Below, piece after piece: positions 15,304-60,772 of a stretch of DNA of 64,000 bases (position 1 is its first letter; each line of letters starts with the position of its first letter). Origin of the DNA: Halostella salina (GTDB lineage: Archaea > Halobacteriota > Halobacteria > Halobacteriales > Natronoarchaeaceae); contig NZ_RCIH01000003.1 in NCBI RefSeq assembly GCF_003675855.1, forward strand, positions 186,001 to 250,000. The letters run 5' to 3'. The translations under genes and the position numbers were made by a program. Under the pieces are notes generated by a model. That model was not told the DNA's origin, ran no database searches, and was given only the letters and a program-made list of their open reading frames with translations.

Positions 15304-15338
15304 GTCGCTCGTCGATTTGGTTCGGACAGTAGTTCCCC

Positions 15339-15360
15339 ACATCCTCCCCGCAGCGTGAAT
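15339..15360 (-). mobile_element. Half-remnant of an IS1341-type right end
   Basis: The minus strand reads GCGGGGAGGATGT preceded by TTCACGCT, sharing a 13-mer with the complete hairpin at 4886-4925. The 5' arm of the stem is missing, so this is at most the right half of an element end. It borders the origin region. The short length makes chance similarity possible. Confidence 0.3.
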
Positions 15361-15412
15361 ACTGGCTCAACGAGATACTGAGCTGATCTGATTTCGCGGT
15401 GGGAGTGGAGAC

Positions 15413-15440
15413 ACACACCCCGGGTTTCCAATGCTATCGG
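15413..15440 (-). repeat. ORB1 (inverted)
   Basis: On the minus strand the core is GATAGCATTGGAAACCCGGG, then GTGTGTG. It matches the GGAAAC-n-GGGGT ORB pattern and faces the opposite way to the other four copies. It marks the left side of the AT-rich segment. Confidence 0.8.
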
Positions 15441-15510
15441 TGGGAAGGAGAGATGCCTGTGAGGGGTCAGGCGCATCGGTTGTCGTCGGTCGCGGCTGTT
15501 TCCCGTGCTC

Positions 15511-15660
15511 ATTTGAGTAATCTGCATATTATTCAGAAAAGTTTTTACACAGGTTGCTACAAACTGTCCACTAGCCTAGTCGTCTAGTTAAGTATGAATA
15601 AGGTAACAGATCCTGTGGGTAACTGATCTAGTTTCGACTTCAAGTTTCGACTTCATTTTG
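15511..15660. other. AT-rich candidate DNA unwinding element
   Basis: Markedly AT-rich compared with the rest of the window (for example TCTGCATATTATTCAGAAAA and GTTTTTACAC). It contains an exact 13-bp tandem duplication (AGTTTCGACTTCA at 15630-15642 and 15643-15655) and an 11-bp near repeat (GGTAACAGATC / GGTAACTGATC at 15602 and 15618). Its position between opposed ORBs fits the unwinding site. Confidence 0.65.
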
Positions 15661-15749
15661 ACCGATCGTCTTGACCGGTCGAGTCCTGAGGGATCCCCTC
15701 CCACATTGCCTGGCCTCGCTGCAACACTGCCCCGACGGTTCTCCACCCG

Positions 15750-15778
15750 GAAAGCATCGGAAACGTGGGGTGGGTGCA
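15750..15778 (+). repeat. ORB2
   Basis: Contains GCATCGGAAACGTGGGGTGG and is identical over 29 bp to ORB3, 78 bp downstream. Presumed Orc1/Cdc6 binding site with the G-rich element at its 3' side. Confidence 0.85.
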
Positions 15779-15827
15779 CCGGTGTCCCACACGGATCCGA
15801 CCGCTACGGAGCAGTATGGAGGCTCCT

Positions 15828-15856
15828 GAAAGCATCGGAAACGTGGGGTGGGTGCA
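15828..15856 (+). repeat. ORB3
   Basis: Exact 29-bp copy of ORB2 in the same orientation (core TCGGAAACGTGGGGTGG). Confidence 0.85.
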
Positions 15857-15887
15857 AACCGTTGCCGCACGCTCCGGAAACGAACGC

Positions 15888-15914
15888 CGATAGCATTGGA
15901 AGCCCGGGGTGAGT
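15888..15914 (+). repeat. ORB4 (diverged)
   Basis: Core GCATTGGAAGCCCGGGGTGA. It matches ORB1 better than ORB2/3 (shared GATAGCATTGGAA) but has GAAGC in place of GAAAC, so binding may be weaker. Confidence 0.7.
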
Positions 15915-16019
15915 GATAGGCAAACACGGTCCATCAGTTCGACTCGCGAATCACGGCGCTCGTCGATCACAGTCCGAGCGATTCACTCACACTTCCCAGC
16001 AGCGCCGGGATAGCCGGAC

Positions 16020-16045
16020 GAAGCATCGGAAACGCGGGGTGGACG
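16020..16045 (+). repeat. ORB5, next to the orc1/cdc6 promoter
   Basis: Core GCATCGGAAACGCGGGGTGG. It ends about 8 bp before the ACTTATG TATA-like element of orc1/cdc6 (about 16055-16061), so initiator binding here could repress its own gene. Confidence 0.8.
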
Positions 16046-16087
16046 AAACCACGGCACTTATGCCCGACCCCTCGAACGACCGTTACG

Positions 16088-17326
16088 ATGGGAAGTCGAG
16101 AGTCGGCAGACATCGCGAAGGAGGTGTTCGAGCAGGAGGACCAGATATTCGCCAACAAGCAGCTCCTCAGCATCGGACACGTCCCCGAACCCGACCGGAT
16201 CGTCGGTCGGGACGACGAGATCCGCGACCTCGCCGAGCAGCTTCGCGGCGCTATCGAGGGGTACTCGCCCGACAACGTCATCGTCTACGGCAAGACCGGG
16301 ACCGGGAAATCGCTCGTCTCGAAGTACGTGATGGGCCGCGCGCGGGACCTCGCGGAGGACGACGTGGCCGTCGGTACGGCCTACCTCGACTGCTCCGAGG
16401 ACAACACCGAGACGCAGGCCGTCTCGTCGCTGGCGAAGACGCTGAACGACGAGGGGGCGACGGACATCGCCGTCCCGCAGACCGGCCTCAGCACGTCGAA
16501 GTACTACAAGCGGCTCTGGGACATCCTCGACCGGCGCTACGACGTGATGATGGTCATCCTGGACGAGGTCGACCTGATGGCCGACGACGACCTGCTGATG
16601 AAGCTCTCCCGCGCGGAGGAGGCGAACAAGGTCGACTGCCACATCGGCGTCATCGCCATCTCGAACAAGATCCAGTACGCCGAGAACCTGAACGAGCGCG
16701 TCAAGTCCAGCCTCCAGCACAAGGAACTGTTCTTCCAGCCCTACGACGCGACCCAGCTCCGCGAGATCATGCGCAACCGGGCCGACGCGTTCCAGGAGGA
16801 CGTGCTCACCGACGACGTGATCCCGCTCTGTGCCGCCTTCGCCGCACAGGAACACGGCGACGCACGCAAGGCGATCGACATCCTCCGGCACGCCGGCAAG
16901 ATCGCGTACAAGAACGGCTCGGACACCGTCACGGAGGCGCACGTCCGCGACGCCCAGCAGCTCGCCGAGAAGGACCGCTTCCGCGAACTCATCGACGGCG
17001 CACCGACGCAGGCCAAGACCGCCCTGCTCGCCCTGGCCGAACTCTCCCTGAACAACGACACTGAGGCGTTCCCCACCCGGGAAGTGTTCAAGCAGTACCG
17101 CGTCATCTGCGACGCGATCGACATGGACACGCTCTCGGAGCGCCGTTTCCGGGACATCCTCAAGGAGCAGGCGTTCCTCGGCATCGTCGACGTGGAGAAA
17201 CTCAACCAGGGCCTCGCCGGCGGGGTCACGCTCAAGAACCGCCTCATCGAGGACCCCGACATCGTCCGCGAGATCCTGCTGGAAGACGGCCGGATGTCCG
17301 AGTGGACTGACGAACCGGACCGGTAG
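16088..17326 (+). CDS. orc1: Orc1/Cdc6 family replication initiator
   Basis: A 412-aa AAA+ initiator that binds ORBs and loads the MCM helicase. Walker A is GKTGTGKS at residues 68-75 and Walker B is VMMVILDEVD near 150-160. Sensor-1 is AISNKIQYAENL, and sensor-2 is in GDARKAIDILRHAG. A C-terminal winged helix (about 310-400; FKQYRVICDAIDM, LSERRFRDILKE) completes the architecture. The length is typical. The ATG lies about 27 bp after a TATA-like ACTTATG, and ORB5 overlaps the promoter region. Its position beside the repeats makes it the probable cognate initiator of this origin. The specific paralogue number cannot be assigned. Confidence 0.95.
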   Translation: MGSRESADIAKEVFEQEDQIFANKQLLSIGHVPEPDRIVGRDDEIRDLAEQLRGAIEGYSPDNVIVYGKTGTGKSLVSKYVMGRARDLAEDDVAVGTAYLDCSEDNTETQAVSSLAKTLNDEGATDIAVPQTGLSTSKYYKRLWDILDRRYDVMMVILDEVDLMADDDLLMKLSRAEEANKVDCHIGVIAISNKIQYAENLNERVKSSLQHKELFFQPYDATQLREIMRNRADAFQEDVLTDDVIPLCAAFAAQEHGDARKAIDILRHAGKIAYKNGSDTVTEAHVRDAQQLAEKDRFRELIDGAPTQAKTALLALAELSLNNDTEAFPTREVFKQYRVICDAIDMDTLSERRFRDILKEQAFLGIVDVEKLNQGLAGGVTLKNRLIEDPDIVREILLEDGRMSEWTDEPDR

Positions 17327-17329
17327 CCG

Positions 17330-17419
17330 GACCGCCGCTCCTACCGATTCGCCCCGACTGACCGCCGCTCCTGCCGACTCGCCCCGACTGACCGCCGCTC
17401 TTGCCGACAGGCCTCAACT
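17330..17419. repeat. Three tandem 30-bp repeats at a convergent gene end
   Basis: The copies are 17330-17359, 17360-17389 and 17390-17419 (unit begins GACCGCCGCTC). The first two differ at two positions; the third is diverged and runs into the last codons of the downstream minus-strand gene. They lie just after the orc1/cdc6 stop. Confidence 0.8.
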
Positions 17420-52409: not shown

Positions 52410-53561
52410 CTACGCCTGTCCCGCGTAGAGGCGCTCGAACACCAGCGTCGGGAACCGCGGCTCGACTCGGCTCGGGCGGCGGCCGGTTCCCTCTGCGTCC
52501 GTCGCGGCGACGCGTTCGAGGACCCCGCTCTCGGCGAGTTCGTACAGGAACCGCTTCACCGTGCTTGCCGTGAGGTCCGAACGCTCGCCGATCCGCGTGG
52601 CCGCCTCGCTGACCGTCGCCGGTTCGTCGAGGTCGAGCAGCGCCGCGAGCACGCGCTGGCGGTTCTCCGGCAGCGCGAGCACCCGGCCGACGTGGACGCA
52701 GCCGTCGGGGACGGCGTCCATTCCGGCGTCGACGTCGCTGGCCCGGATGCGGTCCGCGCCGGCCCGGTCCGCGGCGTCGGCCGCGCCGAACGTCGCGGCG
52801 AGCGCGTCGTGGGCGTCGCCGCCGGCCCATTCGGCGATCCGGCGGGCCTGCCCGTGGCGGAGGACGCCGCTCTCCAGGGCCTTCGAGGCGCGGGCGGTGA
52901 GCACGTCGACCAGCGCGTGCTGGCGGTAGGCCGGGACGTGGATGGTCTCGCCCGTCCACGACGGCGGGACCGTCCGACTGACGAGGAGGAGCGAGACGGA
53001 GTCCTCGACGGGGGCCAGCCACGACCGCACGTCCTCGACGGTGACCTCCTCGGCGCCCCCGACGTGGTCGACGGCGACGACGGCCTGGCGGTTCGGCGTG
53101 TCGAACTGCTCGCGGAGGCGGTCGCGGAGCGTCTCCGTGCCGACCCCGCGTTCCGGGACCGGGTCGTCCGCGACGGCGTTGAGCAGCGTGTGATAGAAGC
53201 GGAACTCGCTGGTGGCGCGGTAGGCGTCGACGCGGACGAAGCCGACGCTGGCCTCGGCGCTGCCGGCGCGTGTGGTGGTTCCGATCGGCTGCCGGCTGCG
53301 GCCGATCTGGTCGCTCAGCGCCGCCAGCAGCGCGCTGACGACGGCGGACTTCCCGGTGCCTTTGGTCCCGTAGACGGCAACGTCGTCGGGTAGTCGGTCG
53401 CGGAACACGGGATCTAGCGCGTCCAGTAGCCGTTCGAGCACCGGGCCCCGACCGACCGGTTCGGTCAGGTGGACGGCCGGGTTCAGCGGTCCGCGGTCGA
53501 GAATGAGGCCGCCCTCCCGCGTCCGGGTCTGTCGCCGTGCGATGCGGTCGCTGATGTCCAT
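52410..53561 (-). CDS. Cdc6/Orc1-like AAA ATPase, degenerate
   Basis: A 383-aa protein. Walker A is YGTKGTGKSAVVSALLA (near 65-80). The Walker B position reads AVVAVDHVGGAEEV, so the catalytic Glu of DE is His. A C-terminal winged helix (about 300-380; TVSEAATRIGERSDLTASTVKRFL, YELAESGVLERV) is present. The start MDISDRIARRQ is typical of haloarchaeal Orc-like proteins. Without the Walker B Glu it may bind but not hydrolyse ATP. No ORB-like repeats were found beside it. A regulator of the adjacent glp genes is an alternative. Confidence 0.78.
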   Translation of the reverse strand: MDISDRIARRQTRTREGGLILDRGPLNPAVHLTEPVGRGPVLERLLDALDPVFRDRLPDDVAVYGTKGTGKSAVVSALLAALSDQIGRSRQPIGTTTRAGSAEASVGFVRVDAYRATSEFRFYHTLLNAVADDPVPERGVGTETLRDRLREQFDTPNRQAVVAVDHVGGAEEVTVEDVRSWLAPVEDSVSLLLVSRTVPPSWTGETIHVPAYRQHALVDVLTARASKALESGVLRHGQARRIAEWAGGDAHDALAATFGAADAADRAGADRIRASDVDAGMDAVPDGCVHVGRVLALPENRQRVLAALLDLDEPATVSEAATRIGERSDLTASTVKRFLYELAESGVLERVAATDAEGTGRRPSRVEPRFPTLVFERLYAGQA

Positions 53562-59701: not shown

Positions 59702-60772
59702 ATGGCACTCGAACTACTCGACGCCGTGATGCAGGTGCCGGTCATCGGCCTCGAAACCGAGCATTTCATCGTGCTCGTCCTCGCTGCGGCGGCCGGCGGC
59801 GCGTTCGGTGCCGCAGTCGGCGCGCTGCCGTCGTTCGTGTTCACCGGCTTCGTCGTCCTGCTCGGCGAGGGCCTCGTGGCGCTGGCCGGCGAGGGAACCG
59901 AGTTCACCGAACTCGGCGGAGCCGACCTGGCGTCCGGCGTCACCGGCACGATCGGCTTCGGGCCCGTCACGGGCCCCCACGTCGCGTTCGCGGGCGGCGT
60001 CGCGGCCACGGCCTACGCCGGCCGACGATACGGCGAGATGGAACCGCCGGACTGGGACTACCACTTCGGGAAGAACATCCTCTACGCGTTCGGCACGAAG
60101 CCGGACATCCTCGCCGTCGGCGCGGTGTTCGGCGTCCTCGGCATGTTGCTGGTGCGGATCGGGAACGGGCTGGCGATGCCGTTCGACACCATCGCCTTCA
60201 CGGTGTTTTTCACCGCGTTCCTCGCACGGCCGGCGTTCGGCTATCCGATCGTCGGTAGCGCGGGCGGGAGCGGCTACTTCGACATGACGCCGTTCGAACG
60301 GGAGGAGGAGCGCGGCGACGGCAGCGGCCGACTCGCCGTCGAACCGTGGCTCCCCCAGCAGTACAAGTGGTCCGGCGTCACGGCGATCGGTCTCGTCGGC
60401 GGCGCGCTCGGCGGCTGGACATGGATCATGACCGGCAGCATCTTCATGGCGTACGGCATCTCCGCCGCGAGCCTGCTGTTCCTCAACCTCGGGGTCGAGA
60501 AGTTCCCGGTCACCCACCACATCACCCTCGGCGGTTCGACGTTCGCCGTCGTCGCCGCGGGCGCGACCGGTAGCGAACTGGTCGTGATGCTGGCCGCTAT
60601 CGCCGGCGGTGTCGTCGGGGCGCTGCTGGGCGAGATCACCCAGCGGCTGTTCTACGCCCACTCCGGGACCCACGTCGACCCGCCCGCGATGTCTATCTTC
60701 ATCTACACGCTGGCGATCGGCGTCCTCTATCTGGCCGGTCTGTTGCCGAACTCGGGCTACCTCGGCCTGTAG
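59702..60772 (+). CDS. Polytopic membrane protein co-transcribed with glpK (possible glycerol transporter)
   Basis: A 356-aa protein with 8-10 predicted helices, no recognised family signature (not an aquaporin: no NPA motifs). Conserved-looking segments are GTIGFGPVTGPHVAFAGG, PPDWDYHFGKNILYAFG and KFPVTHHITLGGSTFAVV. A similar gene follows glpK in other haloarchaea and has been proposed, as I recall, to help glycerol uptake. The 2-bp spacing from glpK supports coupling. Transport is inference. Confidence 0.7.
   Translation: MALELLDAVMQVPVIGLETEHFIVLVLAAAAGGAFGAAVGALPSFVFTGFVVLLGEGLVALAGEGTEFTELGGADLASGVTGTIGFGPVTGPHVAFAGGVAATAYAGRRYGEMEPPDWDYHFGKNILYAFGTKPDILAVGAVFGVLGMLLVRIGNGLAMPFDTIAFTVFFTAFLARPAFGYPIVGSAGGSGYFDMTPFEREEERGDGSGRLAVEPWLPQQYKWSGVTAIGLVGGALGGWTWIMTGSIFMAYGISAASLLFLNLGVEKFPVTHHITLGGSTFAVVAAGATGSELVVMLAAIAGGVVGALLGEITQRLFYAHSGTHVDPPAMSIFIYTLAIGVLYLAGLLPNSGYLGL

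Follow-up and report, generated by a model that had tools for sequence, protein, structure and literature searches.

Haloarchaeal replication origins of the oriC1 type, such as oriC1 (cdc6A) of Haloarcula hispanica, consist of inverted ORBs with a G-string around an AT-rich core that contains CTAG sites, with G-rich repeats inside the boxes and the initiator gene adjoining (PMC3936714). H. hispanica also has a secondary chromosomal origin, oriC2-cdc6E, where ORBs are in excess on one side; this part, oriC2D, lies downstream of cdc6E, comprises 11 ORBs, is essential, and is thought to titrate the initiator (PMC3936714). Haloarchaeal origins are known to differ in traits such as the asymmetry between left and right boxes, and origins are assigned to the same family when their initiators are at least 80% identical (Wu et al.; PMC3528665).

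The locus discussed here lies in a window of 64,000 nucleotides of Halostella salina (C3:186001-250000 in a genome of 3.74 Mb and 17 contigs). It is probably a secondary chromosomal origin, predicted to depend on Orc1/Cdc6 and specific to Halostella, in which an origin-plus-initiator unit derives from a mainly plasmid-borne family. Two sequence features that Wu et al. 2012 used to recognise origins are present: an intergenic region (784 bp) directly adjoining an orc/cdc6 gene, and at least two G-string ORB repeats inverted about an AT-rich element (Table 1). The original prediction of a probable oriC thus holds as far as a haloarchaeal origin next to orc1/cdc6 is concerned, given the boxes, their conservation in five species, the intact initiator and the AT-rich core; the main oriC1 lies elsewhere, on contig C2.

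Table 1. Features of the predicted origin and its initiator gene (positions in the window).
Feature	Position	Strand	Remarks
Presumed inserted unit, origin and orc	15304-17413		Between DUF5779 and VOC genes
Left ORB, single inverted copy CCGATAGCATTGGAAACCCGGGGTGTGTG	15412-15440	-	37.9 bits, matrix without own genome; counterpart in 5/5 Halostella species
AT-rich segment, presumed DNA unwinding element	15500-15675		58-68% AT per 50 bp
Conserved core ATTATTYAGAAAA of AT-rich segment	15528-15540	+	Present in 5/5 Halostella origins
Four CTAG sites in 61 bp of AT-rich core	15571-15631		Densest cluster in 400 kb
Right ORB R1	15751-15776	+	45.0 bits, matrix without own genome
Right ORB R2	15829-15854	+	45.0 bits, matrix without own genome
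Right ORB R3, degenerate	15890-15915	+	32.9 bits; GGAAGC in place of GGAAAC
Right ORB R4, promoter-proximal	16020-16045	+	37.9 bits; constant distance from orc ATG in five species
Putative archaeal orc promoter, GAAACC (BRE-like) then CTTATG (TATA-like)	16045-16062	+	Conserved, five species
orc1/cdc6 initiator, 412 aa	16088-17326	+	AAA+, Cdc6 lid, C-terminal winged helix

All five boxes, one inverted on the left and four direct on the right, are where they had been predicted, the one at 15890 being imperfect. They are 26-29 bp long (the right-hand ones are 26-mers), and all precede the intact orc1/cdc6 gene. The predicted identity of two right-hand copies over 29 bp is exact (15750-15778 and 15828-15856), and the initiator does begin close behind the last copy, the gap between the end of R4 (~16045) and the ATG (16088) being 42 bp by our count rather than 43. 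This distance is constant in all five Halostella species. With up to three mismatches, the pattern AGCATYGGAARCNNGGGGTG has five matches in the window, all at the origin, against an expectation of 0.11 from shuffled sequence; none of 100 shuffles reached five. A matrix built from 22 boxes of the four other Halostella species, with the own genome excluded, returned exactly these five boxes in C3:1-400000, scoring 32.9-45.0 bits and far above the next match at 6.2. On half of the Halostella pelagica chromosome, the same matrix found only that species' five boxes (1.8026-1.8033 Mb; next best 10.8), which belong to its training set. Six exact copies of the core GGAAACnnGGGGT are present in the whole genome, four at the origin and two at another orc gene on contig C10.

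Five Halostella species share both the locus and the layout, with one inverted left box and 4, 4, 4, 5 and 5 direct right boxes, and a start-to-start spacing of R2 and R3 of 59-61 bp in each. The box half AGCAT[CT]GGAA does not vary among 27 boxes, while the mean column identity of the intergenic alignment is 46%. Since layout, half-sites, AT core and Orc are conserved between species that have diverged to dS 0.30-0.71, selection for function is implied. The 1-versus-4 asymmetry, singled out in the original prediction, is real and, being kept in five species, is an old trait and not an accident of one genome; it is lineage-specific and conserved within Halostella. The extra boxes lie upstream of the gene, between core and gene, whereas those of oriC2D lie downstream of cdc6E.

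The initiator matches the profiles PF22703, PF09079 and PF13401 of Pfam as well as TIGR02928 (435 bits), and the nearest solved chains are 2v1u and 2qby. It is 95% identical to its counterpart in H. pelagica DL-M4 (CP040678.1, complete chromosome of 3,203,198 bp) and 96% identical to that in MAG QS_9_68_17; dN/dS values of 0.014-0.069 among Halostella indicate an intact gene under strong purifying selection. The conserved pair GAAACC-CTTATG is a putative orc promoter; it abuts R4 and is positioned for a leaderless transcript. Scans for bacterial promoters, terminators and Rfam families gave no matches. Between orc and the VOC gene (17326-17413), a short imperfect tandem repeat resembling GACTGACCGCCGCTCCTGCCGACTCGCCCC stands where the four other Halostella species have a metallo-beta-lactamase-fold gene. 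Elsewhere in the window, an open frame of 385 residues (52587-53462, minus strand) matches TIGR02928 (orc1/cdc6) weakly, at 39-42 bits, and is a distant AAA+ relative, and a tRNA-Ala (CGC) gene (59932-60021, minus strand) is the sole tRNA gene found.

The sequence around the AT-rich segment is ~35-45% AT, and the 100 bp with the highest AT content between the genes occupy the corresponding position in all five Halostella species. Apart from the boxes, ATTATTYAGAAAA is the best conserved element in the five-species comparison; a search of the AT-rich cores at the genome's own oriC1, the C10 origin and the Orc4 origin of pHS2 did not find it. The core is further distinguished by its CTAG sites. 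CTAG is depleted about 20-fold relative to expectation from composition (63 observed versus ~1,222 expected in 400 kb); among 7,972 sampled stretches of 306 bp, no other exceeds two sites, and the maximum in AT-rich controls is one. The corresponding origins of the other four Halostella species have 1, 3, 3 and 5. The cluster matches a pattern described by Blow et al., who reported that CTAG sites are clustered upstream of orc1/cdc6 in those haloarchaea that carry an orphan CTAG methyltransferase (PMC4752239); a later study found such clustering at just one Haloferax volcanii origin (PMC5867850). A TSPPY-type (m4C-class) methyltransferase is orthologous in all nine family genomes; its CTAG specificity is putative. 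CCACTAG, considered as a motif common to oriC1 and the Halostella unwinding element, was found in some but not all and is therefore attributed to the clustering of CTAG in general. As for a G-rich inverted-repeat enhancer like that of H. hispanica oriC1, just a weak GAGGGG/CCCCTC pair is present, inside the outer boxes.

The GC-skew analysis covered 400 kb of the own contig and one half of the chromosome of H. pelagica. In H. pelagica, oriC1 (3.151 Mb) and the ortholog of the window origin (1.803 Mb) are 1.35 Mb apart. The skew break is clear at oriC1, where it is the chromosome's strongest (rank 1-2 of 80), and not significant at the orthologous site (rank 11-36 of 80, permutation p 0.18-0.43); on the own contig, the skew at the origin has the right sign but is weak. 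The inflection anticipated in the original prediction is thus a property of oriC1, and none of significance marks the window origin. Together with the degenerate R3 box, this would suit a dormant or vestigial origin whose boxes and initiator remain while initiation normally occurs at oriC1 and elsewhere. There are precedents: oriC4 and oriC5 of H. hispanica have no autonomous replication activity, so that predicted origins are not always active (PMC3528665), and inactive or dormant origins next to orc genes are documented in Haloferax mediterranei (PMC4595724). Dormancy has to be reconciled, however, with the conservation of layout, half-sites, AT core and Orc across five species at the divergence given above, and we regard it as a real but less likely alternative.

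The position of R4 raises a different possibility, namely that the boxes are mainly an operator array through which Orc regulates transcription of its own gene, and not an origin. R4 abuts the putative promoter at a constant distance in five species, the Orc4 relatives (see below) likewise have a promoter-proximal box, and there is an archaeal precedent in Orc1-2, an Orc1 protein that is a transcription regulator and not an initiator (PMC9738581). However, four of the five boxes are ~170-680 bp away from the gene, on its upstream side, and an operator would not need an inverted box on the far side of a conserved AT-rich core; this explanation is improbable. A third oriC1-type ORB (CCAGATGAAACGAAGGGGTG) stands immediately before the initiator start at the genome's own oriC1 as well (L016, ~960-990), which suggests that a promoter-proximal ORB is common to different origin families.

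That the window origin is the chromosome's main oriC1 is effectively ruled out: only the adjacent orc1/cdc6 gene and the ORB-like boxes speak for it, whereas the universal haloarchaeal initiator and its consensus ORBs are on C2 and skew marks oriC1 in H. pelagica. The ortholog of Orc1/Cdc6A is encoded at C2:240533-242053, with adjoining boxes CCAGTTGAAACGAAGGGGTGGGGG, and the window's orc is not orthologous to it; nine family genomes have a single copy of this initiator each, at 84-100% identity (84-95% in the eight others), while nothing close to the window's orc occurs in the two sister genera. The own oriC1 (locus L016) combines GAAACGAAGGGGTGGGGG boxes with an AT-rich core, and G-rich repeats lie inside the boxes, as in H. 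hispanica. Archaeal consensus ORBs (GAAACGAAGGGG, with a long G-string and n3 spacing) are present there and not at the window origin, whose boxes read GGAAAC-n2-GGGGTG; the two initiators are 34% identical. Also on C2, inverted boxes AACAGCGGAAACGACGGGTGGG at 66180 and 67662 (L015) lie up- and downstream of a further orc gene (C2:66447-67568), a possible origin.

The closest relatives of the predicted secondary origin are found on plasmids. Outside the Halostella chromosomal clade, the best initiator matches (~70%) are plasmid Orc4 proteins of Halobacterium salinarum, Natrinema, Halorussus and others, with 70% identity for Orc4 of H. salinarum pHS2; part of the Orc4 clade is on large contigs and possibly chromosomal. 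Identical Orc4 proteins occur in genomes of three families (L027, L035, L036), a sign of recent horizontal spread. The Halostella initiators form one clade (support 99-100/99), which is sister to Orc4 at 98/91 in a 48-row tree and part of a polytomy in a 29-row tree; the latter omits L010, L011 and L018, which have very long branches in the former and are probably in the wrong frame. With ~70% identity, below the 80% rule of Wu et al., the Halostella origin falls into a separate family from Orc4. It is a further case of a known origin type, related to plasmid origins. Both groups have boxes with GGAAAC-n2-GGGGTG, inverted on the left and direct on the right of an AT-rich core, with one near the orc start. 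Orc4 origins mostly have two inverted and two direct boxes and about four more downstream of the gene, whereas Halostella has 1 + 4-5 and none downstream; the Halostella unit occupies one fixed chromosomal site, whereas Orc4 origins belong to H. salinarum pHS2/pNRC200 and relatives in many haloarchaea. At L027, L030, L034, L193 and other Orc4 loci, the orc4 promoter region has TCCACTAGATTTATA right after the promoter-proximal box, which places a CTAG methylation site beside the TATA-like box.

The chromosomal site itself indicates how the unit was acquired. In Halostella the gene order is ilvB-leuA-(MFS)-ferritin-like-DUF5779-[origin-orc]-VOC-hydrolase, with the metallo-beta-lactamase-fold gene behind orc in four of the five species and missing from the window's genome. 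In a sister genus (g3; G007, G008), DUF5779 and VOC are separated by 30-36 bp without orc, and the gap is 10-276 bp in ten further genomes of other families, giving at least 12 intact junctions outside the genus; in another sister genus (g2), VOC is absent from that site. As the junction is intact outside the genus and interrupted in Halostella, the unit was probably acquired in the Halostella stem, and its position points to a single insertion that probably preceded the split of the five sampled species. A plasmid may have been the direct donor. In G005, from a sister genus, DUF5779 and the hydrolase are separated by other genes, one of them a DnaJ-ferredoxin fusion (L074, 5450-8182), and the DUF5779-hydrolase junction may thus be insertion-prone.

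The boxes of the Halostella and Orc4 origins differ in one half. All 27 Halostella boxes contain AGCAT[CT]GG and follow AGCATY-GGAAAC-nn-GGGGTG, whereas 146 Orc4 boxes follow ACGWCG-GAAAC-nn-GGGG; the Orc4-type ORB ACGWCGGAAACnnGGGG is found in none of the 27. The left half is ACGTCG in the plasmid outgroup L194, so AGCATY is probably the derived form in Halostella. In the own genome, the C10 origin (three boxes at the threshold used; initiator 58% identical) has the same right half GGAAACGTGGGGTGGGTG and a left half TACAGC (TACAGC-GGAAAC) in place of AGCATY. Contig C10 carries three different orc genes; one of them (L012, L013), at 769-1878, recurs at 111629-112738 with identical match scores. 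With ends that overlap in this way, the 113-kb contig probably represents a circular plasmid of ~110.9 kb. It is the AAA+ domain that recognises the ORB G-string (PMC3936714), and the winged helix would then read the other half, with E351 and wing positions 374-383 of Orc as candidate specificity residues. Fixed differences between Orc4 and Halostella are not enriched in the winged helix (rate 0.248 versus 0.232 in AAA+). Tentatively, ORBs and initiator might have switched this half together from ACGWCG to AGCATY after capture in the stem, which would make the chromosomal origin insensitive to incoming Orc4 plasmids. Both Halostella-type and Orc4-type systems occur in one Halostella genome (G002).

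By analogy with described origins, the adjacent Orc would bind the five boxes with its winged helix on the AGCATY half and its AAA+ part on the GGGGTG half. The left box and the nearest right box would bracket the AT-rich core, whose melting would allow MCM loading and firing, while the surplus right-hand boxes might stabilise or titrate Orc. Through the box abutting the promoter, Orc might regulate its own gene, and methylation of the CTAG sites in the core may serve as a mark of origins that have just been replicated.

Extra origins on archaeal chromosomes are usually explained by plasmid capture, but clean cases are few. The Halostella case allows comparison of the site when empty, the site as filled throughout the genus, and plasmid relatives that still exist. 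Within one genus, three paralogous systems have the G-string half of the ORB in common and differ in the other, which should make origin specificity mappable, and if the half-site switch is true, G002 would show naturally whether the initiators are orthogonal and the replicons compatible. The clustered CTAG sites in the presumed unwinding element may be a further case for the control of origins that has been proposed as a role of the haloarchaeal CTAG methyltransferase.
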